From: Halomicrobium zhouii
GTDB taxonomy: Archaea; Halobacteriota; Halobacteria; Halobacteriales; Haloarculaceae
Assembly: GCF_900114435.1 (NCBI RefSeq)
Contig: NZ_FOZK01000006.1
Location: 1-64,000, forward strand
Direction: 5' to 3'
DNA length: 64,000 bases
Shown: positions 28,923 to 54,514 of the stretch, one piece after another
Layout: the number at the start of each line of letters is the position of its first letter
Position numbering within the stretch: position 1 is the stretch's first letter
Position numbers and translations under genes: made by a program
The notes under the pieces: generated by a model
Seen by the model: the letters and a program-made list of their open reading frames with translations, nothing else
Database searches by the model: none
What the model was told of the DNA's origin: nothing

Positions 28923-30122
28923 TCAGACGGTACCGGTGACGACGTCGGCGACGCGCTGGCGGTCGAACAGCCGTTCGTCCTCGGGAACGTCGACGATAGA
29001 CCCCGGCCATTCGCCGAACTCGTCGGGGTAGAGCTGTTTCGCGAGCGCTTCCGCGGAGAAGAGGTCGACGATGGGACCCATGTACTGGCCTCCGGTGCGG
29101 ACGACGTTCCCCTTCCGGACGGCGCGGAGTTCCCCGAGCGTCTCGTGGTCCTGGGCGGTCCGGAGCAGCTCCCGGAACTCGTCGTCGTCGACGTAGGAGA
29201 GGTGGCCGATGACGCCGATATAGTCGGGATCGGCGTCGAGCAGTGCTTCGACGCCGATCGGTCTGAACGGGACGTAGGAATCCCCCTCGAAGGCGTTGTC
29301 GACGCCGAGCAGACGGAAGGATCGCGCGTCGTTTCGCGGCGCGTCGATGTTGGCCGCGTAGAACGTGCCGTTCTCGGAGTCGAATCCGAAGTTGAACGCG
29401 GCGACCGTCGGCGCGTCGTCGCCCGTGGGTACCCGTGACTGGACGTCCGCGTAGAACGATTCCTTCAGCGCTACCCACGCCTCGTACTGCTCGCGGCGCT
29501 GGAAGATCTCCGCGACCTTCTCGAAGGCCTCGTAGAGCGTGTAGTAGGGGTCCCGGCCGCCGAAGGGGAACCGGATCATCGACCCTAGCAGCGGCGCGAC
29601 GTTCGATTCGATCTCCCGGAGGTCCGCGTCGTCCCACCCAGAGTACTTCTTCAGCAGGCGCGGGTCCATGAGGTGGACATCCGCGTCGACCTCGTAGAAC
29701 ACCTCCTTGTCGTACTGCGATTCCGCCGACTCGCCGAGCGTCTGTACCGCGTCGGCGTCGAACTCGACGCCCGGGAGCGCGTCGTAGTACTTCAGCGGGA
29801 GGCGGTCGAAGGCGGCGACGGCTTTCGGCTGGATGCCGAGCGCCATCGCCATGTCCATCCAGGCGCCCGGGATGGTCGCGTACGTTTCCGGGACCGACTC
29901 GAAGGTGTGGGTTCCGGCGGGGTTGATGGTCACGTCGTAGGGCGTCTCGGCGTCAGTCCGAGTCGCCGGCGGCGTCGCTGACGCCGTGTCGGTCTCGGAC
30001 GCGTTCCAGGCGGGGCCGTCGCCGCTGCAACCGGCGAGTAATCCGCCGCCGATGACGACGCCGCCGCCCTTGATCGTCTCTCGTCTGGTGGGAACGTGGT
30101 AGGTGTCGATTCCGCTGGCCAT
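28923..30122 (-). CDS. Siderophore-type ABC binding lipoprotein, paralog 1
   Basis: A 399-residue Tat lipoprotein. It has a twin Arg in PTRRETIKGGG and the lipobox GGLLAGC with Cys32, then a Ser/Thr/Ala/Glu linker and a FepB/FhuD-like binding domain. Family landmarks shared with the five paralogs downstream are FESVPETYATIPGAWMDMAMALG, DKEVFYEVDADVHLMDP, LREIESNVAPLLG and YYTLYEAFEKVAEIFQRREQY. The start at 30122 is preferred because the palindromic operator lies just upstream of it. It is transcribed separately from paralogs 2-5 and has its own operator. Confidence 0.88.
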   Translation of the reverse strand: MASGIDTYHVPTRRETIKGGGVVIGGGLLAGCSGDGPAWNASETDTASATPPATRTDAETPYDVTINPAGTHTFESVPETYATIPGAWMDMAMALGIQPKAVAAFDRLPLKYYDALPGVEFDADAVQTLGESAESQYDKEVFYEVDADVHLMDPRLLKKYSGWDDADLREIESNVAPLLGSMIRFPFGGRDPYYTLYEAFEKVAEIFQRREQYEAWVALKESFYADVQSRVPTGDDAPTVAAFNFGFDSENGTFYAANIDAPRNDARSFRLLGVDNAFEGDSYVPFRPIGVEALLDADPDYIGVIGHLSYVDDDEFRELLRTAQDHETLGELRAVRKGNVVRTGGQYMGPIVDLFSAEALAKQLYPDEFGEWPGSIVDVPEDERLFDRQRVADVVTGTV

Positions 30123-30123
30123 A

Positions 30124-30143
30124 TTTTTAGGCCGGCCTAAAAA
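30124..30143 (-). promoter_or_regulatory. DtxR/IdeR-like palindromic operator of paralog 1
   Basis: TTTTTAGGCCGGCCTAAAAA is a perfect 20-bp palindrome one base upstream of the start codon. The core TTTAGGCnnGCCTAAA recurs at the two other iron-island promoters. It would cover the transcription start of a leaderless gene, with a TATA-like stretch (ACAGTTATG) further upstream. It resembles the TTAGG...CCTAA operators of DtxR/IdeR/SirR metal-dependent repressors. Confidence 0.75.
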
Positions 30144-30221
30144 CACATAACTGTTTCCCAATACGTCCGTCCGGCCGTCTGCACCTCTAATTTCGCCGGT
30201 CGTCGTGCGGGATCGACTGGT

Positions 30222-31436
30222 TCAGAGGTCGCCGTTCCGGATGTCCGCGACCCGCTGTCGGTCGTAGAGACGTTCGTCCCCGAACTCATCGGGAAACAGT
30301 TGACGCGCGGCTCGTTCGGTCTTCGAGAGATTGCTGATCGGGCCCTGGTACATCCCGCCGGCTGGATACACCGCGCCGTTCTGGACCGCACTGAGCTGGC
30401 TCGCCGAACTGTGTTCCCGGAGATAGGCACGGTAGGTGTCTTCGAACTCGGATTCCGTCCGGTACTGGTCGGTGTAGAACAGCAGTACCTCGGGGTCGAT
30501 CTCAAGCAGGGCCTCGTAGTCGATGGACCCGCGGTCGGAGGTGAAGCTCTGGACGTCCGACCCCGCGAACGCGTCGCTCACCCCGAGCGTGTGCCAGTGC
30601 TCGTACGCCGTCGTATCGCCGAGCCGATACGGGTAGTACTTCTCGGGCTCCGTCGACCCGGGCGAGACGAGTGCTACCTCGGGGCGTTCGTCCTCGAGCG
30701 GCAAGCGTTCCCGGATCCGCGTAGTGGTTTCGTCGCGGAGGTCGCGAAGCGCCCGGTAACGGTCCGTCCGGCCGAACACCTGGGCCACCTTCTCCGTGGC
30801 CTCGTTCAGGCTATAGTAGGGGTAGTCCCCGTGCCAGGGGTACGTCGAGAAGCTGGTGTTACCGCAGAACGGACCGACGTTCGCCGCGATTTCGTCCACG
30901 TCCGCCCGATCCCAGTCGGGGATGAGGTTGATCATGTAGTTCGGGTCGACGAAGTGGACGTCCGCGTCGATGTCGTAGAGCAACTCCTTCGAGATGCCGT
31001 CCTGCCAGAGCGAGGTCGTCCCGTCTTTCGCCGTCGAGAGTCCGGGGATGTCCTCGTAGTGCCACGTCCGGTACTCGCCCGTGAGGACGACGGCACTCGG
31101 CTTGTCCAGCCCGAGTGCGACGCCCATGTCGGCCCAGCTCGCGTTCTCGGCGACCCAGGTCTCCGGGACTTCGGGGAACGTGACCTGGCCCGCCGGCTGT
31201 ATCGTCACGGAGTACGGACCGCGGGCCGCCGTGGTGGTCTCCGTGGCCGATTCCGCCGTCGCCGTCTCGCTCAGCGCGTCGGTCGCCGTCGACTCAGCCG
31301 TCGACGGGGCTTCCGAATCGGTCGGTTCGCTCGACTCGCCCGCGCCGGCACAGCCGGCCAGCAGCCCGCCGCCGACTATCGCACCGCCGTACCTGATGGC
31401 GTCTCGCCGGGTGGCCGAGGCTCGGTCGTCGCTCAT
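30222..31436 (-). CDS. Siderophore-type ABC binding lipoprotein, paralog 2
   Basis: A 404-residue protein whose start at 31436 overlaps the stop of paralog 3 by four bases (ATGA). It carries the Tat motif ATRRDAIRYGG and lipobox GGLLAGC, then a long Ser/Thr/Glu linker. The binding domain has LLYDIDADVHFVDP, VDEIAANVGPFCG, YYSLNEATEKVAQVFGR and IDPEVLLFYTD. It is the last gene of the four-paralog operon (5-4-3-2). A longer in-frame start would run back into paralog 3 and is rejected. Confidence 0.87.
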   Translation of the reverse strand: MSDDRASATRRDAIRYGGAIVGGGLLAGCAGAGESSEPTDSEAPSTAESTATDALSETATAESATETTTAARGPYSVTIQPAGQVTFPEVPETWVAENASWADMGVALGLDKPSAVVLTGEYRTWHYEDIPGLSTAKDGTTSLWQDGISKELLYDIDADVHFVDPNYMINLIPDWDRADVDEIAANVGPFCGNTSFSTYPWHGDYPYYSLNEATEKVAQVFGRTDRYRALRDLRDETTTRIRERLPLEDERPEVALVSPGSTEPEKYYPYRLGDTTAYEHWHTLGVSDAFAGSDVQSFTSDRGSIDYEALLEIDPEVLLFYTDQYRTESEFEDTYRAYLREHSSASQLSAVQNGAVYPAGGMYQGPISNLSKTERAARQLFPDEFGDERLYDRQRVADIRNGDL

Positions 31437-32680
31437 TCGTCGCTTCCCTCGGTGGCGATATTCGCGAGTCTGTCGCGGTCGAACAGCTGCTCGTCCTCGG
31501 GTATTTCCGGTAACGGCTCGCCGTCGACGTAGCCGGGCCACTCGCCGAACTGCTCGGGGTAGAGCTGCTTGGCCGTCATCTCCAGCCCGAACGCCGTCAT
31601 GATGGGGCCCTGGTGCCACGCGGCCCCCGAGGCGTACACCCGGTCGTTTTGGACCGCCGAGAGCCGTTTCCCGACTGAGTGGTCGGCGAGCGTCTCCCGG
31701 ATCTCAGCGACGTTCTGGTACGACGTCGTCCCGGACATCACGAGGAGGACGTCGGGATCCGCTTCGAGGAGTCCCTCGTAGTCCATCCGCCCGATGGCGT
31801 TGTCCCAGCTCTTCCCGGCGAAGGCGTCCCGCGGTTCGAGCGGCCAGATATCCGCTCGCCAGATGCCGCGCTCGGCCGTCCGGAACGTGTCGAAGGCGCC
31901 GTCGGTGTGCCACACCCTCGCGACGGTGGGGCGCCCCTCCGCCGGCGGGAGGTTCGATCGGATCTGGTCGAGTAACTCGTCGTGGACGGCGGCGATCTGC
32001 CGGTAGCGCTTCTGTTCCTGGAACACCGCCGCGACCTTCTCGCCCATCTCCTGGACGGTGTAGAACTCGTACTCGTCCGCTCTCGCCGGCGGTTCGATCC
32101 GGCGCGTGCTATAGTAGTTCCCGAACACCGGCCCCAGATCCCGGGCCACGTCGTCCACGTCGTCGCTACTCCAGCCGTCCTGGGAGGCCAGCAGCACCGG
32201 GCCGATGAGGTGAACGTCGGCGTCTAGCTCGTAGAAGATCTCCTTGTCCGTCCCGTTGCCGGGGTTGGGATCCGTCAGTTCCTCCCAGTCGAGAGAGACG
32301 CCGTCGAGGTGGTGGTAGTAGTTGTTCATCCCGCCGCCGAACATCTCGGGCGCGTACAGCGACGTCAGCGCGTCGCCGTGGCCGACGGCGATGGCCATGT
32401 CCGCGTACCAGGGGTAGAACCCCATCACGGTCTCGGGGACGGCGTCGAACTCGACGGTCCCCATCGGGGACATCGTGACGGAGTAGGCCCCGTCGTCCCC
32501 GGTGGCCGTCTCGGTCGCCGCCGTCGGCGAATCGGTCGCCGTCGAGTCGGGCGTCGCGGTCGATTCCGACCCGCCATCGCCGGTGCAGCCCGCGAGCAGG
32601 CCCCCGCCGACGACCGTCCCGCCGTACTTCACGTACTCTCTCCGCGTCGGCTGCCCGTCTGCGCTCGCGTCATCGCTCAT
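31433..32680 (-). CDS. Siderophore-type ABC binding lipoprotein, paralog 3
   Basis: A 415-residue Tat lipoprotein (PTRREYVKYGG, lipobox GGLLAGC) followed by a Thr/Ala-rich linker. The binding domain has DAVPETVMGFYPWYADMAIAVGHG, DKEIFYELDADVHLIGP, FYTVQEMGEKVAAVFQEQ and EADPDVLLVMSG. Its start overlaps the stop of paralog 4 by four bases, and its stop overlaps the start of paralog 2. It is the most divergent of the operon set in the ligand-facing part, with extra Tyr and His residues near the first strand (MNNYYHHLDG). Confidence 0.87.
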   Translation of the reverse strand: MSDDASADGQPTRREYVKYGGTVVGGGLLAGCTGDGGSESTATPDSTATDSPTAATETATGDDGAYSVTMSPMGTVEFDAVPETVMGFYPWYADMAIAVGHGDALTSLYAPEMFGGGMNNYYHHLDGVSLDWEELTDPNPGNGTDKEIFYELDADVHLIGPVLLASQDGWSSDDVDDVARDLGPVFGNYYSTRRIEPPARADEYEFYTVQEMGEKVAAVFQEQKRYRQIAAVHDELLDQIRSNLPPAEGRPTVARVWHTDGAFDTFRTAERGIWRADIWPLEPRDAFAGKSWDNAIGRMDYEGLLEADPDVLLVMSGTTSYQNVAEIRETLADHSVGKRLSAVQNDRVYASGAAWHQGPIMTAFGLEMTAKQLYPEQFGEWPGYVDGEPLPEIPEDEQLFDRDRLANIATEGSDE

Positions 32681-33882
32681 TCATCGACCCCCTCCGTAAC
32701 GATCGACGCGAGCCGGTCGCGGTCGAAGAGTCGGTCCTCCGTGAACTCGTCGGGGAAGTAGCCTTTCGCGTAGCGCTCGATCATGAACAGGTTGTGCAGC
32801 GGGCCGCTGTAGATCGGTCCGCCCCGGAACACCCGGTCGTTCTGGACGGCGGTCAGCTGGCTGCCGATCTCGTGGTCCCTCATGTAGTCGACGACGCTTT
32901 CCTCGAACGCCTCGCGGGTCAGTCCCTCCTCGTGATAGCGGACGAGCAGGGAGTCGGGGTCTATCTCCAGCATCGCCTCGTAGTCGATGGCGCCGGAGTC
33001 GCTGGTCGAAAGCCCGTCGATGCCGGTGCCGGAGAAGGCGTCCGAGAGGCCGAGCGTGTGGAAGTGTTCCTTGTTGGCGCCGTTGCCGGACACGCGGTAC
33101 GGGTAGAACTTCTCCGGCTCCTTGCCGCCGAACACCAGCGCCGCGTTCGGTCGCTCGTCGGGCGACGGGAGACGAGACTGGACCGTGGCGACCAGTTCCT
33201 CGTGCATGGACCGGATCGCCTCGAAGCGCTCGCGTTCCTGGACGATCTCGGCGACCGTTTCGAAGGCCTCGTACAGCGAGTAGTACCGGTAGTCGTGCCA
33301 CGAGTCGGTCCGGCGGAAGATGACGTTGCCGAGGAACGGCGCGACGTTGTCTCGTATCTCGTCGAGGTCGCGCTTGTTCCACGCCTGGAACCAGTCGGTC
33401 AGCGCGTGGGGGTCGATCAGGTGCAGGTCGGCGTCCATCTCGTAGAACGGCTCCTTCGAGACGCCGTCGTTCCAGAGCTGCGTGAGCCCGGAGAGGTCGA
33501 CGGACACGCCGTCGAGTTTCTCGTAGTGCGTCGTCTTGTATCGATCCCGGTACCAGATGGACTCGACGGCGTCGCCGTGCCCGAGTGCGACCAGCATGTC
33601 GACGTAGTCCGCGGTAAAGGGCGCGATGGACTCCGGGACGCCGTCGAACGCGACGGTCCCGACCGGCTCCATCGTCACCGAGTAGGACTCGTCGTCAGTC
33701 GCGGTCCGCGTCTCCGTGTCGGCGTCGGTGGTCGTTTCGCCGGCCGGCGTCGAGGTCCCGGCGTCGCCGCCATCGCCCGAACAGCCCGCCAGCAGCCCAC
33801 CGCCGACCACTGCGCCGCCGTACCTGATCGCATCTCTGCGCGTCGGCCCTGTCGTCGTCTCCTCCGCGTCGTTCTCACTCAT
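32677..33882 (-). CDS. Siderophore-type ABC binding lipoprotein, paralog 4
   Basis: A 401-residue Tat lipoprotein (PTRRDAIRYGG, GGLLAGC). The binding domain shows FDGVPESIAPFTADYVDMLVALG, SKEPFYEMDADLHLIDP, LDEIRDNVAPFLGNVIFRR, YYSLYEAFETVAEIVQER and EIDPDSLLVRYHEEG. It is coupled by four-base overlaps to paralogs 5 and 3. The signal region is nearly identical to that of paralog 2, which suggests recent duplication or gene conversion of the exporter part. Confidence 0.87.
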   Translation of the reverse strand: MSENDAEETTTGPTRRDAIRYGGAVVGGGLLAGCSGDGGDAGTSTPAGETTTDADTETRTATDDESYSVTMEPVGTVAFDGVPESIAPFTADYVDMLVALGHGDAVESIWYRDRYKTTHYEKLDGVSVDLSGLTQLWNDGVSKEPFYEMDADLHLIDPHALTDWFQAWNKRDLDEIRDNVAPFLGNVIFRRTDSWHDYRYYSLYEAFETVAEIVQERERFEAIRSMHEELVATVQSRLPSPDERPNAALVFGGKEPEKFYPYRVSGNGANKEHFHTLGLSDAFSGTGIDGLSTSDSGAIDYEAMLEIDPDSLLVRYHEEGLTREAFEESVVDYMRDHEIGSQLTAVQNDRVFRGGPIYSGPLHNLFMIERYAKGYFPDEFTEDRLFDRDRLASIVTEGVDE

Positions 33883-35111
33883 GCTTCGAACTCACCCGTC
33901 ACGATGTCCGCGACTGCCTGGCGGTCGAACAGTTCGGCGTCGCCGGTCACCTCACCGAAGACGTCGGGATAGATCTGTTTGGCGGCCCGCTCGGTGAGGA
34001 AGAGATTGTGGATCGGTCCCTGGTGGAGGTAGCCGCCGCGGTAGACGCGGCCGTTCTGGACCGCCGTCAGCTCGCTTCCGACGGGGTGGTTTCGCATGTA
34101 GTCGAGGACCACGTCGCGGAACTCCCGGGGTGACTTGCGTTCGTGGCCGCGGACGAGGATGACGTCGGGGTCGATCTCCAGCAGGTTCTCGTAGTCGAGT
34201 TCGCCCCGGTTGGTGGTGCTGAGGTTCTCGATGTCGGTGCCGACGAGGGCGTCGGGCACCCCGAGGTCCCGCCACTGCTTCTTGCTCGTGCCCCGGTCGT
34301 CGAGACGGTACGGCGAGAACGTCTCCGGTTCGTCGGTCCCCTCGAAGGTGAGGAAGACGTCCGGGCGCTCGCTGGCGGGCGGCATCTCCGACTGGATGTC
34401 AGCGATAAACTCGTCGTGGAACGATTCGAACGCCCGGTACCGCTCACGTTCCTGGAACACCGTCGCTACCTTCTCGAAGGCCTCGTATAGGGTGTAGTAC
34501 CGGTAGTCGTGCCACTCGTCGGAGCGACGGAAGATCAGGTTGCCGACGAACGGCGCCACGTTCTCGGCGATCTCCTGGACGTCGGACTCGCTCCAGTCGA
34601 ACCAGTTGACCAGCATCTGGGGATCGTAGAGGTGGACGTCGCAGTCGAGTTCGTAGAACTCCTCCTTGGTCCGGACCTCCGGGTACTGCTCGAGGCGCTC
34701 TTCGTCGACGTCGACGCCGGGGAGTTCGTCGTAGACAGACGTGTAGTACCGGTCGATCCCACCGATGCCCGCCAGCCCGTCGGCCTGTCCGAGGGCCACG
34801 GCCATGTCGGCGAACGCCCCGCAGTAGGCGACCCACTGTTCGGGGACGGACTCGAAGGTGACCTCGCCGGCCGGCGCCATCGTCACCGAGTACGACTCGC
34901 CGGCGGTCGCTGACTCGGTGGTGGTGGTAGTGGCCCCGTCAGTCGACGCGTCGGTAGCCGCAGACCCGTCAGCCGCCGTGGTCGCCCCGTCGCTTCCTCC
35001 GTCTGATCGTCCCGTACAGCCGGCCAGCAGTCCGGTCCCGGCGACAGATCCCCCGTAGCGGAGACACTGCCGGCGTGTCGGCGTGAACTGGTCGTTCTGG
35101 TCTCTTGCCAT
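33879..35111 (-). CDS. Siderophore-type ABC binding lipoprotein, paralog 5
   Basis: A 410-residue Tat lipoprotein (PTRRQCLRYGG, lipobox TGLLAGC) and first gene of the 5-4-3-2 operon. The binding domain has FESVPEQWVAYCGAFADMAVALG, TKEEFYELDCDVHLYDP, VQEIAENVAPFVGNLIFRR, YYTLYEAFEKVATVFQER and EIDPDVILVRGHE. The start codon lies five bases from a palindromic operator, with a second operator about 40 bp further upstream. It is closest in sequence to paralog 4. Confidence 0.88.
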   Translation of the reverse strand: MARDQNDQFTPTRRQCLRYGGSVAGTGLLAGCTGRSDGGSDGATTAADGSAATDASTDGATTTTTESATAGESYSVTMAPAGEVTFESVPEQWVAYCGAFADMAVALGQADGLAGIGGIDRYYTSVYDELPGVDVDEERLEQYPEVRTKEEFYELDCDVHLYDPQMLVNWFDWSESDVQEIAENVAPFVGNLIFRRSDEWHDYRYYTLYEAFEKVATVFQERERYRAFESFHDEFIADIQSEMPPASERPDVFLTFEGTDEPETFSPYRLDDRGTSKKQWRDLGVPDALVGTDIENLSTTNRGELDYENLLEIDPDVILVRGHERKSPREFRDVVLDYMRNHPVGSELTAVQNGRVYRGGYLHQGPIHNLFLTERAAKQIYPDVFGEVTGDAELFDRQAVADIVTGEFEA

Positions 35112-35116
35112 ACCGA

Positions 35117-35132
35117 TTTAGGCAAGCCTAAA
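35117..35132 (-). promoter_or_regulatory. DtxR/IdeR-like operator, proximal, paralog 5 operon
   Basis: TTTAGGCAAGCCTAAA has perfect 7-bp arms and a 2-bp spacer. It sits five bases before the ATG at 35111, over the expected transcription start. A TATA-like GGTTAAGAG lies between it and the distal operator. Confidence 0.75.
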
Positions 35133-35151
35133 ACTCTTAACCGCTTCGATC

Positions 35152-35167
35152 TTTTGGCGAGCCTAAA
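35152..35167 (-). promoter_or_regulatory. DtxR/IdeR-like operator, distal, paralog 5 operon
   Basis: TTTTGGCGAGCCTAAA matches the same consensus with one arm mismatch (T for A). It is centred 35 bp from the proximal site, between the paralog 5 promoter and the 3' end of the flavin oxidoreductase gene. Two sites flanking the TATA box suggest tighter repression of this operon than of the others. Confidence 0.6.
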
Positions 35168-35177
35168 AACGGCTCGT

Positions 35178-36068
35178 TCACTCAGCGGCGTCGACTTCCT
35201 CACGAATTTCGCGTGCGCGTTCGAGGACGAGGTCGTCGTCGAGGTGGGCCAGCAGCCGTCGCTGTCCCCGTTCGGCGCGAGCCGATACCTCGGATTCGGT
35301 GACGTAGGTGTCGAGCCGTCGGTCGATCTCCCGCTCGCGCAGTTCGACCAGCCTGTCTTCGTCGAGGTCGTGATCCGACGGCAGCCGCTCCGCGAACCAC
35401 TCGCGCCAGCGGTCGCGGTCCGCCCACTCGTTGTCGCGCTGGGCCTCCCGCCGGACCCAGTCGTAGTGGTCGACGAACGCCTCGGGATACCTCTGCTCGC
35501 GCCGGCCGGCGCCGACGACGGCGAGGCCGACCCGCGCACCGCGACCGGCCGCGATTATCGCCTGGCGGTCGGTCTCCGCCGATGGCGAGGCGACGTAGAG
35601 CCCGTCGATCGGCGTCGTTCCGTCGTGGTCGGCGTAGTCGCGGTCGAAGTGCTCGTGTTCCTCGCCGCCGTGATCGTGGACGTCGAACATCGCGTCGCCG
35701 TCGAGCGGCCGGAGGTACTCGCCGTCGTACCGCGTCGCCGCGACGACGTAGTCGGCGGTCCGCTCACGCCCCTCCTGGGCCGTCACGACGAACCCGTCGC
35801 CGTCGTCGGCCCGCTCGACCGACTCGACGAGGTCCGTGACGAACTCGCAACCGGCCTCCTCGGCGTGGTCGTGCATGAGGCGGTACAGCGTCTCGATGTC
35901 CACGCCGGCGGGGAAGCCGAGGTAGTTTTCGAGGTAGGCGCACTGCTTGAGCGAGGACCGGCCGCAGTCGAAAACGACCGTGTCGAGGCCGTAGCGGGCC
36001 GTAAATATGCCGGCCGAACAGCCGGCGGGGCCGCCGCCCACGACTACGACGTCGGTGTCAGACGTCAC
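35178..36068 (-). CDS. Thioredoxin-reductase-like FAD oxidoreductase with a His-rich loop
   Basis: A 296-residue flavoprotein with an N-terminal FAD site VVVVGGGPAGCSAGIFTARYG and a C-terminal FAD motif IDGLYVASPSAETDRQAIIAAGRG. It lacks the redox CxxC of thioredoxin reductases. The region where that module would lie carries HDHGGEEHEHF and more acidic and His residues (nt about 35640-35700), which looks metal-binding. The C-terminal 80 residues are charged and helical. It overlaps the end of paralog 6 by 11 bases, so it is co-transcribed with it. It may reduce ferric chelates or a siderophore after uptake (inference). Confidence 0.8.
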   Translation of the reverse strand: MTSDTDVVVVGGGPAGCSAGIFTARYGLDTVVFDCGRSSLKQCAYLENYLGFPAGVDIETLYRLMHDHAEEAGCEFVTDLVESVERADDGDGFVVTAQEGRERTADYVVAATRYDGEYLRPLDGDAMFDVHDHGGEEHEHFDRDYADHDGTTPIDGLYVASPSAETDRQAIIAAGRGARVGLAVVGAGRREQRYPEAFVDHYDWVRREAQRDNEWADRDRWREWFAERLPSDHDLDEDRLVELREREIDRRLDTYVTESEVSARAERGQRRLLAHLDDDLVLERAREIREEVDAAE

Positions 36069-37305
36069 CCGCGATCACCTCGCGAACCCGCTGCCGGTCG
36101 AACAGCCGCTTCTCCGCGGGGACGTCCGGGAACCGTTCGGCTTCGAACTCACCGAACTCGTCGGGATAGAGCTGCTGGGCGACCATCTCGGTCTGGAGCA
36201 GGTTGACGAGCGGCCCCTGAGACCCGAAGGCGCCGGGGTAGACGTCACCGTTCTCCACGGCCGTGAGCTGGCTCCCGACGGGGTCCGCGGCCATCGGTTC
36301 GACGTACCGCTCGCGGAACGCGGCCGCCGAGAACGTGTCCCCGTCGTCGGTCGTCCGGATCTCCCAGTGGACGACGATGATCTCGGGGTCGATCTCCACC
36401 AGCGTCTCGTAGTCGATCGTCCCGCCCTCGACCGTCTCGGTCGAGAACGCGCTCCCCACGTCGAGGTCGCGGTAGGGCTTGGTCTCCACGCCCTCGACCT
36501 GCGTGTGCATCGGGTAGAACGTCCCCTCCCGCGGGTCGGAGGCGCTGTTGACCAGGGCTATCTCCGGCCGTTCGTCCGCCGGTGGGAGGCGCGATTGGAC
36601 TGTCTCCAGGAGCGAGTCGTGGATCTCGGCGATGGCCTCGTAGCGCTCCCGTTCCCGGAAGAGGTCGGCGAGTCGCTCGAAGGCCTCGTACAGCGAGTAG
36701 AGCCGGTAGTCGTGCCACTCTCGGCGGCGGAGGATGTTGTTCCCGAAGAACGGGGCGACGTTCTCACGGATCTCCTCGGTGTCCGACTCGTCCCAGCCGG
36801 CGTCCCACCCCGTGGCGTGCATGTAGTTCGGGTCAATCAACACGACGTCGGGGTCCCGTTCGTAGAACACCTCCTTGTCCCAGTTGGACGCCGAGAGCGC
36901 CGTGGTCTCGGCCTCTGGCGGAACGTCGAGTCCGAACGGGTCGAACAGGAATCCGGGGATCATGTTCGTCGCGGTCTGGAACCCTTCGCGCTGGCCCAGC
37001 GCGAAGGCCATGTCGGCCCACTCGCCGTTGTTGACGATGTACGTCTCCGGGACCGATTCGAAGGTGACACAGCCGACGGGCTCGATGCAGGCGTCGTACG
37101 GTTCGTCCGTTTCCGGGGTTCCCGTCGCCGCGTCCGTCGCCGCAGCGCCGGTCGCGGTCGCGCGCTCCTCGTCCGCCGTCGTCGCCTTCGCGTCCTCGCC
37201 CGACCCGCTACAGCCCGCCAGGAGTCCGCTCCCGACGACCGCGCCGCCGTATCTGACCCATTCACGTCTCGTCGGTCCCGTCCGCGTCGCGTCGTCTCTG
37301 GCCAT
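36058..37305 (-). CDS. Siderophore-type ABC binding lipoprotein, paralog 6
   Basis: A 415-residue Tat lipoprotein (PTRREWVRYGG, lipobox GLLAGC) with an Ala/Thr/Glu linker. The binding domain carries FESVPETYIVNNGEWADMAFALG, DKEVFYERDPDVVLIDP, TEEIRENVAPFFGNNILRR, YSLYEAFERLADLFRER and EIDPEIIVVHWE. The ATG at 37305 lies immediately downstream of a palindromic operator, so a slightly longer in-frame start inside the operator is rejected. It heads a two-gene unit with the flavin oxidoreductase. Confidence 0.88.
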   Translation of the reverse strand: MARDDATRTGPTRREWVRYGGAVVGSGLLAGCSGSGEDAKATTADEERATATGAAATDAATGTPETDEPYDACIEPVGCVTFESVPETYIVNNGEWADMAFALGQREGFQTATNMIPGFLFDPFGLDVPPEAETTALSASNWDKEVFYERDPDVVLIDPNYMHATGWDAGWDESDTEEIRENVAPFFGNNILRRREWHDYRLYSLYEAFERLADLFRERERYEAIAEIHDSLLETVQSRLPPADERPEIALVNSASDPREGTFYPMHTQVEGVETKPYRDLDVGSAFSTETVEGGTIDYETLVEIDPEIIVVHWEIRTTDDGDTFSAAAFRERYVEPMAADPVGSQLTAVENGDVYPGAFGSQGPLVNLLQTEMVAQQLYPDEFGEFEAERFPDVPAEKRLFDRQRVREVIAGDV

Positions 37306-37308
37306 GGT

Positions 37309-37324
37309 TTTAGGCCCGCCTAAA
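37309..37324 (-). promoter_or_regulatory. DtxR/IdeR-like operator of paralog 6
   Basis: TTTAGGCCCGCCTAAA has perfect 7-bp arms, three bases before the start codon at 37305. A TATA-like ACTAAATG lies just upstream on the minus strand. The layout is the same as at paralogs 1 and 5. Confidence 0.75.
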
Positions 37325-37372
37325 AACATTTAGTCGTTTCGGACCGCCCTTCGGCCGAATAAACCCGTCCAG

Positions 37373-50854: not shown

Positions 50855-51010
50855 GACTCACTTCGTTCGTCTGTCGAGCCCTCGTTCGCTTCGCTCACGA
50901 GAACGCCGTTGGACTCGCTGTGCTCGTCCAACGAGCTCCGCTTCGCTGACGCTCAGCGGAACGCCGTGAATCGGAGATTCACGAGCCCTCGTTCACTCCG
51001 TTCACGAGAA
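50855..51010. repeat. Cascade of short hairpins
   Basis: Consecutive inverted repeats: GACAGACTCACTTCGTTCGTCTGTC, shown here as arms GACAGAC/GTCTGTC (about 50858-50882). Then CTCGTTCGCTTCGCTCACGAG (arms CTCGT/ACGAG), TTGGAC...GTCCAA, TCCGCT...AGCGGA and GTGAATC...GATTCAC, and CTCGTTCACTCCGTTCACGAG again. The unit ending GAGAACGCC recurs twice. The last hairpin runs into the 3' end of the PolB2 gene. Such TTCGCTTCGCT-rich hairpins are frequent near gene ends in haloarchaea. Confidence 0.7.
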
Positions 51011-53329
51011 CGCCCCCAGCGTCAGGTCTTCCCCGTCGTCCAGATACCGCCGGATCCGTTCGCGGTCCCAGCCCAGCGGCGAGACGACGCTCTCGGCGGC
51101 CCGGACCAGCAGCGTCTCGTAGAAGTCCGCGTCGTAGTCCCCGCAGTCCTCCCACGGCAGGCGGACGCGGTCCCTGTCGCGGCGTCCATCGTCGACGACG
51201 ACGTAGCGGACGTCCTGTCCGGGATTCCGGGCGACGTCGTGGGCCTCGTAGCGTTCCAGCGCGGCCACCGTTCGGGTCCGCTGGTCGTAGTCGGCCAGTG
51301 ACTTCGAGGCGCTCGTCCGGAGGACCAGGTCGTCGGGGTCGACGCTGCCCGACTGGACGCGAGCGATGGCGCGGGCCAGCCTGTCACAGACCGGCTCCGG
51401 TTCCCGGTGTTCGTCCAGCGTCGCCACGAGGTCTCGCTGGATCTCGCCGACGAACGTCGGCGTCGAGCGCTGGCGGGCCTCGATGCCGCGAAACTTGAAG
51501 CTGTCATCGTTTCGCTTTCCGAAGTAGCTCGTCAACGACCCGCGCTCGCCGTCGCTCGTGGGGACGAAACACACCCACTCGAAGTCGCTCTCGTGTTCGA
51601 GCGGGATGCCCCTCGCCTCGGTGAGGGCGGCACAGACCTCTTCGATGGGCGTCGGGTCGTCGACGGCGGCGGTCACCCAGAGGCTGTCGACGATGCCGTG
51701 GACGACGCGCCACCCGGCGGCCTCGAGGTACTCCTTGGCGTCCAGCAGCAGTTCGCGAGCGAAGGCGTTGATGGACTCGTGGACCTCGATGCGACCGAAC
51801 TTGCTGTTTCGGTAGCCCTGGTAGCCGAAGCAGGTGACGAGGATCCACTTCAGGGCGCTTATCTTCGACTCCAGGCGGGCGGCCCGCTCGGGGTCGTCGG
51901 TCTCGCGCAGGTCGCCCTTGAAGCCGTAGCGGTTGCTGACGATCCGGTCGAGGACCGTGGGAACGAACGGTTCGTCGACGTCCGGGCAGACGCTGTAGCC
52001 GAGTTTCGGGACGTCGTCGGTGTCGTGGCAGTCACACTGCACCGTCTCCGGACTGAGGTCGTTCTCGATCATGATCCGCGGATAGAGAGACGCGAAGTCG
52101 ACTTCGACCACGTTCTCGTGGAAGCCGACGTCTGGCTCGAAGGTGAACCCGCCACGGTCGGCGTCGTGGAGCGTCCCCATTCGCTTGAACGATTCGCCCT
52201 CCCAGGACCGCCAGGGGACGACCACGCCCCGGTCCCGGGCCTCGCGGATCTGCATCGCCGTGAACACCGTCCCGATGGAGGCCCACGATGCCTCCTGCAG
52301 CGGTTTCCACGACCGGTCGACCAGGTCGAACAGGCCCGGGAGCTTCCCCTCGCGCCAGAAGAAGCTGTTCGAGCGGTCGACGACGGCTCGCCCGGGCACG
52401 TCGTAGCGGGCCGGCGAGTGGCCGACGCGGCCGTAGCTCTCGTAGCTGTTCTCGCCGGCGAGCATGCGGTGGCCCGGCAGGCGGCCCAGGTCGCAGTCGA
52501 CGCCCAGCGCGTCGGCCCGGTCGTGGATCAGCGGGACCAGGTCGGCGCTGGAGAGCACGAGGACATCCGGGTCGACGGCGTCGAGACGGGCCGCGAGCGC
52601 TCGGAGGACGGCGGCATCGCCGTCGCCATCCGGCGAGAGGCGCTCACGGGCTTCGCCCGTTTGCCGTTCCGCGGCGCGTGGCGCCGCGCGTCCCTCGCAG
52701 GTGAGCGCCGTCAGGTCCCCGGCGGCCAGCCGCTCGGTCGGAAGCGAGAGCGACAGCGACCGGGGCCAGTGCTCGCCGCCCTCCTCGGCCTCCGGCGTCG
52801 GGTCGACGCCGCGTTCCAGGCAGTAGCGGAACTTCGGGCTCGGGTCGACGTCGTACAGCCGGAACGTTCCCGGTCGCCAGCCGCCGGCGGTGCTCGCGCC
52901 GTTCGCGCTGCCCGGCTCGCGGTTCGCGCCGCTCACCGCTCGCTCGTTCGGCGGGCCCTCCCTTCGGTCGGCCCCGCCCGGCTCCCTGACGGTCCGCACC
53001 TCCCGTGCGAACGTGGCAATCTCGCTCGGGCGCTCCAGCGAGACGGCGAGCACTCGCGAGGGGTCGCCGTCGCGCAGATTGAGATACTTCCGGTCCCACG
53101 CCAGGTCGACGACCTTCGGGTCGGATTCGAGGGCCGCCCGCAGGTCCGCCAGGGCGTCGGCCGGGCCGCCGACGTAGCAGGTCGGCGCGTAGTCGCGGTC
53201 ACGCTGGACGACGACGTTCTCCGAGACCCGCTCCGTCGTGGTCCCGGGCACGTCCCGCGGTTCGGCCCCGGCGGGCACCCGGGACCACAGGCGGACCTCG
53301 TCGTCTTCGACGTCGACGGCGACGACCAC
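51002..53329 (-). CDS. polB2: Family B DNA polymerase, PolB2 type
   Basis: A 775-residue B-family polymerase with a GTG start. The polymerase motif A is intact (D411-F-A-S-L-Y-P-R). Motif B is seen as ALKWILVTCFGYQGYRNSKFG. Motif C, normally YGDTDS, reads H544-G-I-V-D548-S, so the first catalytic Asp is Ile. This motif-C change is a known trait of the archaeal PolB2 clade. An N-terminal exonuclease-like domain is present (AVDPDVLVLSSADLVPLI) with a long variable insertion. There are no inteins. Two small genes sit directly upstream, within 3 bp of each other, forming an operon. Replication is normally done by PolB1/PolD, so a lesion-related role is likelier. Confidence 0.9.
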   Translation of the reverse strand: MVVAVDVEDDEVRLWSRVPAGAEPRDVPGTTTERVSENVVVQRDRDYAPTCYVGGPADALADLRAALESDPKVVDLAWDRKYLNLRDGDPSRVLAVSLERPSEIATFAREVRTVREPGGADRREGPPNERAVSGANREPGSANGASTAGGWRPGTFRLYDVDPSPKFRYCLERGVDPTPEAEEGGEHWPRSLSLSLPTERLAAGDLTALTCEGRAAPRAAERQTGEARERLSPDGDGDAAVLRALAARLDAVDPDVLVLSSADLVPLIHDRADALGVDCDLGRLPGHRMLAGENSYESYGRVGHSPARYDVPGRAVVDRSNSFFWREGKLPGLFDLVDRSWKPLQEASWASIGTVFTAMQIREARDRGVVVPWRSWEGESFKRMGTLHDADRGGFTFEPDVGFHENVVEVDFASLYPRIMIENDLSPETVQCDCHDTDDVPKLGYSVCPDVDEPFVPTVLDRIVSNRYGFKGDLRETDDPERAARLESKISALKWILVTCFGYQGYRNSKFGRIEVHESINAFARELLLDAKEYLEAAGWRVVHGIVDSLWVTAAVDDPTPIEEVCAALTEARGIPLEHESDFEWVCFVPTSDGERGSLTSYFGKRNDDSFKFRGIEARQRSTPTFVGEIQRDLVATLDEHREPEPVCDRLARAIARVQSGSVDPDDLVLRTSASKSLADYDQRTRTVAALERYEAHDVARNPGQDVRYVVVDDGRRDRDRVRLPWEDCGDYDADFYETLLVRAAESVVSPLGWDRERIRRYLDDGEDLTLGAFS

Positions 53330-53331
53330 GG

Positions 53332-53637
53332 TCAGGACACCTCCCCGTCGGCGGATTCGACCCGCTCTTGCATGTCCGCGACCGTCTCACGGAGCTCCGC
53401 TATCTCCTCGCGTTGCTCCTGGATGGTGCCCTCGTGGGCGAGCAGCATCGACACGAGGACGAGCACGTCGCGGTCGAGGTGGTTGGCGTAGCCCGCGGCG
53501 TCGGCGAACTCGCGAGCGCCGTCGAACAGGCTGTCGAAGTCCGACTGGTAGCGCCGGCGGAGCCCGCGGCGGTAGTCGCCGAACTCCCGCTCGTAGGAAT
53601 CGAGGAAGTCGCGGTAGGTGGGGTTCGTTCGTCCCAT
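53332..53637 (-). CDS. Coiled-coil protein of the PolB2 operon
   Basis: A 101-residue protein. The first part is helical with aromatic residues (YRDFLDSYEREFGDYRRGLR). The second ends with a predicted coiled coil (EGTIQEQREEIAELRETVAD, about residues 70-98). Its stop is 2 bp from the PolB2 start and its start 2 bp from the stop of the RadA-like gene. It looks like an adaptor that links the two. No known family comes to mind. The start at 53637 excludes an arginine-rich extension. Confidence 0.7.
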   Translation of the reverse strand: MGRTNPTYRDFLDSYEREFGDYRRGLRRRYQSDFDSLFDGAREFADAAGYANHLDRDVLVLVSMLLAHEGTIQEQREEIAELRETVADMQERVESADGEVS

Positions 53638-53639
53638 GG

Positions 53640-54296
53640 CTAGTCGAGCGCCGCGATCTCCGTCGTCGACGGTTCGACCGCGTCGAGGGCCGCCCGGTCC
53701 TCGACCGCGCCGCACAGTTCGACCCAGTAGGGGATCGTCGTCTGCCACCAGCCGTGCTGCCAGTACCCCGTCGTCTCGAACTCGTCGGTGGCGAAGGCGT
53801 ACCCTAGGTCGGTGCGCCGGCACTCGATTTCGGTCGTCGCCAGGTCGCGGACGGCCGCCCGTCGCTCGTCACCGGCGCGGGGAGCGCTCACCAGCGCGGG
53901 CGCGTCGAGCGCACTCGCGAGGTCCGCGAGCAGTCCGACCGAGGCGTCGAAGAGCCGGTCGATCTCGGCGGCCGACGCGTCGGCCGCCTCGTACAGCGTC
54001 GCGACGTTCGGCGCGACGATCAGTCCGGTGCGCTCGTTCGCCGCCGCGACGGCGTTCCGGACGAGCTGGTGGTGCTGGTGAGCCGTGAACGCCCGCGCGA
54101 CGCGGATCCCACGGAGCGCCCGCCGGTTCGGGATCTGCGCGGTCAGTCCGTAGGTGGAGGCCGCGCCGCCCGCGTCGATCCACAGCACTTCACCGTCGTG
54201 CTCGCTTCCCAGGACGAGCCGCTGGATCGCGCCGCTATCTGGTTGCTCGACGAGGGCCAGACCCGCGTCGAGCGGCGGAGTCGCTGTCGCTGTCAT
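53640..54296 (-). CDS. RadA/RecA-fold protein with a degenerate P-loop
   Basis: A 218-residue protein. Residues about 14-30 (ALVEQPDSGAIQRLVLG) sit where RadA has GxxxSGKT, but Lys and Thr are replaced by Ala and Ile. The strand LWIDAGGAASTYGL and the segment GIRVARAFTAHQHHQLV closely resemble RadA's (I)xVARAFNSxHQ region. The core fold is thus RecA-like but probably unable to hydrolyse ATP, reminiscent of ImuA/SulA-type partners of bacterial mutasomes. It is the first gene of the three-gene operon with PolB2. Its name and function here are inference. Confidence 0.65.
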   Translation of the reverse strand: MTATATPPLDAGLALVEQPDSGAIQRLVLGSEHDGEVLWIDAGGAASTYGLTAQIPNRRALRGIRVARAFTAHQHHQLVRNAVAAANERTGLIVAPNVATLYEAADASAAEIDRLFDASVGLLADLASALDAPALVSAPRAGDERRAAVRDLATTEIECRRTDLGYAFATDEFETTGYWQHGWWQTTIPYWVELCGAVEDRAALDAVEPSTTEIAALD

Positions 54297-54322
54297 ACCT
54301 CCACTTTTTCTTCACAGGAGGG

Positions 54323-54338
54323 TATAGGCCAGCCTAGG
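54323..54338 (-). promoter_or_regulatory. Palindrome overlapping the promoter of the PolB2 operon
   Basis: TATAGGCCAGCCTAGG contains TAGGCnnGCCTA, the 12-bp core of the operators found in the iron island. On the minus strand CCTATACCC, the TATA-like element about 25-30 nt before the ATG at 54296, overlaps one arm, so a bound protein would block transcription. It could be a site for the same metal-dependent repressor or for another regulator. Confidence 0.5.
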
Positions 54339-54514
54339 TCGCGGTGGAAGTGAAACTGTACGCCGTCTGTGGATCTCTCTGTGAGGCCGTTCTGACGAAG
54401 GCCAATATTGCTGGTAGGTTCAGTCCGTGGTCGGGAACCGTGTCACACCCGAACTGGAACGCATCGGAGTCGCTCTGAAGACTCGACCGACGCCGCGAAC
54501 TCGTGTCGTATCGC

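Follow-up and report, generated by a model that had tools for sequence, protein, structure and literature searches.

Analysis of a 64,000-nucleotide stretch of the Halomicrobium zhouii genome (contig NZ_FOZK01000006.1, positions 1 to 64,000; hereafter the window) indicated that three adjacent minus-strand genes, encoding the DNA polymerase PolB2, the small protein PPB2 and the inactive RadA homolog iRadA, very probably constitute a haloarchaeal PolB2 mutasome operon, which would be induced by DNA damage via a promoter box shared with radA and would perform error-prone translesion synthesis. The complex itself is known; the new elements of this analysis are the promoter link to radA and a second promoter element, found in related operons, with its linked Orc1/Cdc6 gene. 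Gene identity, gene order, protein motifs and the enrichment and position of the promoter boxes were computed here; the subunit contacts are taken from published models of homologs, and the extender activity and mutagenesis from experiments in Sulfolobus.

The PolB2-PPB2-iRadA trio (51002–54296) consists of three open, co-directional open reading frames (ORFs; 775, 101 and 218 amino acids (aa), respectively), separated by gaps of exactly 2 bp, as had been stated in an earlier reading of the window made from the sequence alone (the sequence-only reading). The organization of the operon and its promoter is as follows:

54340–54355, minus strand: A box TTTCACTTCCACCGCG (operon copy, also given as TTTCACTTCCAC and TTTCACTTCCA), 59 bp before the iRadA start (upstream alignment; motif of Boubriak et al. 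2008)
54321–54328, minus strand: putative TATA box CCTATACC, approximately 28 bp after the A box start (comparison of promoter positions)
54297–54302, minus strand: GGAGGT, Shine-Dalgarno-like, directly 5′ of the iRadA ATG (sequence)
53640–54296, minus strand: iRadA, encoded by the first gene of the operon; inactive protein of 218 aa with a RadA/Rad51 fold (ORF; profile versus PDB; AlphaFold2/Foldseek)
53332–53637, minus strand: PPB2 (arCOG07300-like), helical protein of 101 aa with a C-terminal coiled-coil-like stretch (N-terminus as in PMC11791011)
51002–53329, minus strand: PolB2, family-B DNA polymerase, 775 aa, GTG start (Pfam/NCBIfam matches, alignment)

Alignment of the regions upstream of iRadA genes revealed a conserved element, TTTCACTTYCAC (element A, or the A box). 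Allowing one mismatch, it was detected in 12 of 52 non-redundant iRadA upstream regions, compared to 0.09 expected from dinucleotide shuffles; within a set of 66 such regions it occurred 11 times in the forward and never in the reverse orientation. A CTTATG-like TATA box is located approximately 30 nt from its start. Archaeal activators usually sit just upstream of the transcription factor B recognition element and TATA box. The possibility that A is a new element was rejected, since an earlier report (Boubriak et al. 2008, PMC2556686) already describes TTTCACTTTCA in front of the Halobacterium genes radA1, top6B, vng17 and vng280, all of which are induced by UV-B, as well as in front of radA genes of other haloarchaea. 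The two elements share the same sequence, the same placement upstream of the TATA box and radA as a common target; mutasome, RPA and Orc promoters, in contrast, are not named as carriers in the consulted passages of that report. No paper placing the A box at PolB2 operons was found in a literature search whose coverage excluded most subscription journals, which leaves priority unproven.

Genomes G244 (3.5 Mb) and G286 (3.9 Mb) each contain only two exact copies of the 16-mer TTTCACTTTCACYNYG, one preceding radA and the other preceding iRadA. The H. zhouii genome contains 18 A sites with at most one mismatch, compared to 2 for a reversed control, and these include the promoters of (i) the window operon, (ii) a solitary PolB2 gene, (iii) radA, (iv) an RPA gene and (v) an Orc1/Cdc6 homolog. 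About 100 exact sites were identified in 39 genomes, with an RPA gene and a gene resembling topoisomerase VI subunit B among the inspected targets. Damage induction of the window operon is thereby suggested circumstantially, by the box that its promoter has in common with that of radA.

Two further H. zhouii genes preceded by an A box may be considered candidate members of this regulon: one resembling a large helicase (with an Lhr-like start, as judged by eye; contig C3:550834, locus L094) and one for a zinc-finger/HNH-like protein (C1:416594, L097). In several genomes, exact A boxes are immediately followed by genes for a recurrent family of proteins of approximately 58 aa with VHLERRGGRTYLV-like ends (L219, L223, L225 and similar loci).

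Other haloarchaeal mutasome operons contain, at the same promoter position, a different element, CGGAA-N3/4-CGGAA (element B), which is present in 24 of the 52 non-redundant iRadA upstream regions (0.11 expected from dinucleotide shuffles). Its half-sites are 3 or 4 nt apart, with hardly any other spacing; among the 66 upstream regions 31 copies are in the forward and one in the reverse orientation, and a CTTATG-like TATA box follows the second half-site at a fixed distance (20 nt, counted from where that half-site begins). The literature search recognised no description of B (papers containing TCGGAA were judged by title, and most subscription journals were outside its coverage); the element is apparently undescribed, with priority unproven.

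The two types of operon differ in their association with Orc1/Cdc6 genes. A co-directional Orc1/Cdc6 gene located up to 3 kb upstream or just downstream of the operon (referred to as linked Orc) accompanies 20 of 25 B-type operons and none of 13 A-type operons (Fisher p 1.6e-6, a value inflated by relatedness), as well as 10 of 16 operons lacking both A and B. B is frequently present in the promoters of the linked Orc genes themselves. A plasmid location of the window was considered; its contig, C6, is 134 kb long, and no Orc1/Cdc6 gene was detected on it at E≤1e-5. Four genomes with A-type operons (H. zhouii, G281, G244 and G070) contain no close relative of the linked Orc (best identity 27–31%); in two others (G023 and G078) such a relative is present elsewhere in the genome. 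An A box was seen in the promoters of the stand-alone Orc gene of H. zhouii and of the G019 relative of this gene, and none in those of its relatives in G070, G244 and G256. In a PolB2 tree the A label requires five changes, at least four of them forced by well-supported branches, and the window PolB2 and its solitary paralog are placed apart from the main A group. Therefore, the association cannot be traced to one inherited event.

That Orc genes are linked to PolB2 neighborhoods had been recognized before, in 2014 (PMC4104785) and in 2025 (PMC11791011). A regulatory precedent is provided by Sulfolobus, where ANTTTC is the binding site of Orc1-2, both in its own promoter and in those of other damage-response genes; induction of the PolB2 enzyme Dpo2 depends on Orc1-2 (PMC9738581). 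The haloarchaeal operons resemble this system in enzyme class, in their presumed damage regulation, in the ACTTTC repeats of A, which fit ANTTTC, and in the linkage of Orc1/Cdc6 genes to many PolB2 copies. However, the haloarchaeal element is a tandem repeat, and B differs in sequence. An Orc paralog is a candidate reader of A or B in haloarchaea. A tentative model, to which we assign slightly less than even chances, is a two-branch damage response, in which one branch would use the radA-type box TTTCACTTTCAC and the other CGGAA-N3/4-CGGAA, read by an adjacent, dedicated and autoregulated Orc1/Cdc6 paralog; operons would have switched repeatedly between branches, and those with the radA box, including that of the window, would lack a linked Orc. 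If this model is true, Orc1/Cdc6 proteins regulate the damage response not only in Sulfolobus but also in Euryarchaeota.

As regards the proteins, the window trio is a standard PolB2 mutasome, and thus one more member of an already described complex. Makarova et al. (2014, PMC4104785) described a predicted operon, present in haloarchaea too, that unites PolB2 with arCOG07300 and with inactivated forms of RadA. The names PPB2 and iRadA come from Timinskas et al. (2025, PMC11791011), who built models of a 1:1:3 complex for 40 species and referred to it as a mutasome. The trio matches this system (the arCOG07300/arCOG07763 neighborhood) in its three adjacent, same-strand genes in the order iRadA-PPB2-PolB2, the MGRT arm, the IID-type motif C, the lack of a recognisable exonuclease, the inactive RadA fold and the D(K/R) motif (DR in the window), and no defining feature differs. 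The UV-B box at the operon, the second cis element in relatives and a conserved C-terminal LxxF/Y of PolB2 go beyond the published descriptions. The sequence-only reading had proposed a mutasome acting in lesion tolerance, an idea that these two papers and the Sulfolobus Dpo2 data support, but which was not new as presented. Its suggested comparison of gene order across Halobacteria bore out the arrangement: the order is identical in every retrieved locus with all three genes (dozens of haloarchaeal loci), in most of which neighboring genes overlap slightly or lie a few bases apart, and, because it is kept wherever all three genes occur, it is not due to chance. With the window proteins as queries, iRadA matches were obtained in 178 of 292 genomes of the class (E≤0.001; matches near E 1e-9 were not taken as proof of a whole trio) and PolB2 matches in 185 of 292 (E≤1e-60).

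In bacterial Pol V (UmuD′2C-RecA) and ImuA-ImuB-DnaE2, too, an error-prone polymerase works with a small accessory protein and a partner of the RecA family. They differ in that their polymerases belong to families Y and C, as opposed to family B here, and RecA is active in Pol V; PPB2 has no known relationship to UmuD or ImuB. The window polymerase, being of family B, is neither a C-family DnaE2 nor a Y-family ImuB, and the bacterial mutasomes are an analogy rather than a group to which the trio belongs.

Database and structure comparisons confirmed the three protein types named in the sequence-only reading, the second of them from the appearance of its sequence. The relevant protein features are:

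54075–54101, minus strand: VARAFTAHQ, iRadA residues 66–74, start of a RadA-like helix (sequence; 41 relatives)
53626–53637, minus strand: MGRT N-terminal arm of PPB2 (comparison of 54 haloarchaeal PPB2)
52313–52378, minus strand: PolB2 loop DRSNSFFWREGKLPGLFDLVDR (residues 318–339), matching in position the beta-alpha motif published as binding iRadA and the D(K/R) after it (sequence; function assigned from the homologs in PMC11791011)
52079–52099, minus strand: PolB2 motif A, DFASLYP, with D411 kept (alignment)
51686–51694, minus strand: PolB2 motif C, I-V-D (residues 546–548), a DxD with its first Asp substituted and its second retained (alignment)
51005–51028, minus strand: PolB2 C-terminus DLTLGAFS, resembling a PCNA-interacting peptide, [LI]xx[FY] (C-terminus comparison; PCNA binding presumed)

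The 775-aa product was identified as a family-B DNA polymerase by Pfam DNA_pol_B (1.8e-26; residues 361–716) and NCBIfam NF004418 (3.6e-249, above the cut-off). A family search gave no exonuclease match in PolB2 even at E≤10, an absence indirectly suggesting that its proofreading exonuclease is inactivated. Motif C reads IVD where DTD would be expected, and GIVDS was found in 35 of 37 PolB2 relatives. The sequence-only reading was correct in describing motif C as altered, but this does not imply a dead enzyme: the first Asp alone is lost, as in the active Sulfolobus islandicus enzyme, which has IID. Some PolB2 mutasomes carry a clamp-binding motif in iRadA or PolB2. The C-terminal [LI]xx[FY] is present in 36 of 37 haloarchaeal PolB2 proteins, compared to 9.5% of internal windows. 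The window protein (ending DLTLGAFS) lacks the Gln of the kind seen in the replicative PolB of the same genome (QTGLGQFG), and the LxxF/Y may represent a reduced PCNA-binding motif.

The H. zhouii genome encodes a second intact PolB2 (701 aa, 57% identical over its full length; L072:7055-9160, contig C2, approximately 283055–285160, minus strand), which has no iRadA or PPB2 gene nearby. Its own A box, TTTCACTTCCACTCTA, is located approximately 60 bp upstream, and its partner proteins may be supplied by the window operon. A decayed third copy on contig C4 (L073:4541-7609), approximately 3 kb from an Orc1/Cdc6 gene, comprises a truncated iRadA, a frame-shifted PPB2 and a PolB2 cut to 430 aa, and an isolated fragment (L074:6824-7144; C2:221826-222143) matching the last 108 PolB2 residues (56%) is apparently a remnant. 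Solitary PolB2 genes are also present in G264, in G160 and on plasmid pNRC200 of H. salinarum NRC-1, the last without an A box. Plasmid pHS2 of H. salinarum R1 carries a complete trio (L232:2662-6100), in which the annotation of both iRadA and PPB2 reads hypothetical protein; no A or B box was found upstream of it.

iRadA is a RadA-fold partner without the N-terminal domain and the ATPase residues. By itself, the 218-aa sequence matches Rad51/RadB weakly (Pfam 0.1; TIGR02237 0.0021), and a PDB search with this single sequence gave nothing useful; an alignment profile was needed, and that of 41 relatives matched RAD51 and archaeal RadA chains (best 7.2e-12). Its AlphaFold2 model (predicted local distance difference test score 87.5, predicted template modelling score 0.81) was matched by Foldseek to RAD51/RadA (E ~1e-9, TM-score ~0.6). 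No GxxxxGK[ST] (Walker A) motif is present, and the Walker B Asp is substituted in the profile alignment with the PDB chains. These results agree with the earlier observation of VARAFTAHQ and no GKT; R68, F70, T71 and Q74 of this motif are invariant across the 41 relatives. PPB2 gave no family match above any curated cut-off. It appears helical, with an E/R/L-rich, heptad-like stretch at its C-terminal end, and begins MGRTNPTYR at position 53637, the MGRT start being common to 54 of 54 non-redundant haloarchaeal PPB2 proteins.

Several observations weigh against a damage-induced mutasome operon. The box in the window differs by one change (TTCCAC for TTTCAC) from the 11-mer reported in 2008; the latter occurs exactly upstream of iRadA in several relatives. 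A boxes also precede genes without an evident part in repair (such as those for threonine dehydratase and small unknown proteins), and the box is not purely a repair element. Furthermore, the trio is absent from many haloarchaea and polB2 of H. volcanii is deletable (unpublished, cited in PMC7776575), which makes it dispensable. The non-repair targets, together with the number of exact sites across genomes, would fit a generic strong-promoter element or another stress element in place of a damage switch, but we regard this as unlikely, considering that the only two exact sites in G244 and G286 are those at radA and the mutasome, that the targets found include RPA, top6B and Orc genes, and that the core is linked to UV-B-induced genes in Halobacterium (PMC2556686).

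The trio might also be a regulatory or structural module, in which a catalytically inert PolB2 forms part of a complex modulating replication restart or origin use, an idea proposed in PMC4104785. The loss of the first Asp of DxD here and in most PolB2 proteins and the Orc1/Cdc6 genes linked to many haloarchaeal copies would agree with it; it is nevertheless improbable to a high degree, given the retained motif A and second Asp, the robust polymerase activity of S. islandicus Dpo2, whose motif C is IID (PMC8764526), and the absence of a linked Orc from A-type operons, that of the window included. Similarly low odds apply to the proposal of the sequence-only reading that iRadA loads the polymerase onto RadA filaments, here taken to occur at stalled forks. 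RecA-type ancestry, the A box common to radA and the analogy to Pol V, a RecA user, speak for such loading, but in the published models the RadA-type interface is taken up by the PolB2-iRadA contact, and a pairing of PolB2 with active RadA scored poorly (ranking score 0.28; PMC11791011).

Under the favored interpretation of a damage-induced mutasome, DNA damage would lead a regulator to act at the TTTCACTTYCAC box just upstream of the TATA box, so that the operon is activated along with radA and further repair genes. PolB2, iRadA and a PPB2 trimer would then form a complex, in which, according to the published models, iRadA would dock on a PolB2 loop that imitates the RadA-RadA protomer contact, and the MGRT arm of PPB2 would reach towards the active site and DNA (PMC11791011). 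Through the C-terminal LxxF of PolB2, the complex may be anchored to PCNA. Sulfolobus Dpo2 is damage-inducible and solely responsible for targeted mutagenesis (PMC7390963), and acts as an extender polymerase, elongating mispaired termini past lesions (PMC8764526); the haloarchaeal complex would likewise elongate mispaired or lesion-containing primer ends, and, as this would proceed without proofreading, survival would be bought with mutations. We infer that the whole scheme holds in H. zhouii, with the box as the damage switch, which an Orc1/Cdc6-type protein may read.

The promoter evidence bears on the open question of what activates error-prone repair in archaea lacking LexA. Should the boxes be read by an Orc1/Cdc6 relative in haloarchaea, the Sulfolobus Orc1-2 scheme would extend to a second archaeal phylum; genetics is available in Haloferax and Halobacterium. 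A function is also suggested for the pHS2 genes of H. salinarum R1 that are still listed as hypothetical.

Two other features of the window were recorded. Just 3′ of polB2 (50860–51010), several near-repeats of GAGCCCTCGTTCnCTnCGnTCACGAGAACGCC with hairpin potential are present, possibly terminators or a repeat element. Five paralogous genes for lipoproteins of the twin-arginine translocation type (signal RR..x-GGxVVGGGLLAGC) are clustered on the minus strand at 28923–37329, forming an expanded array of binding proteins.

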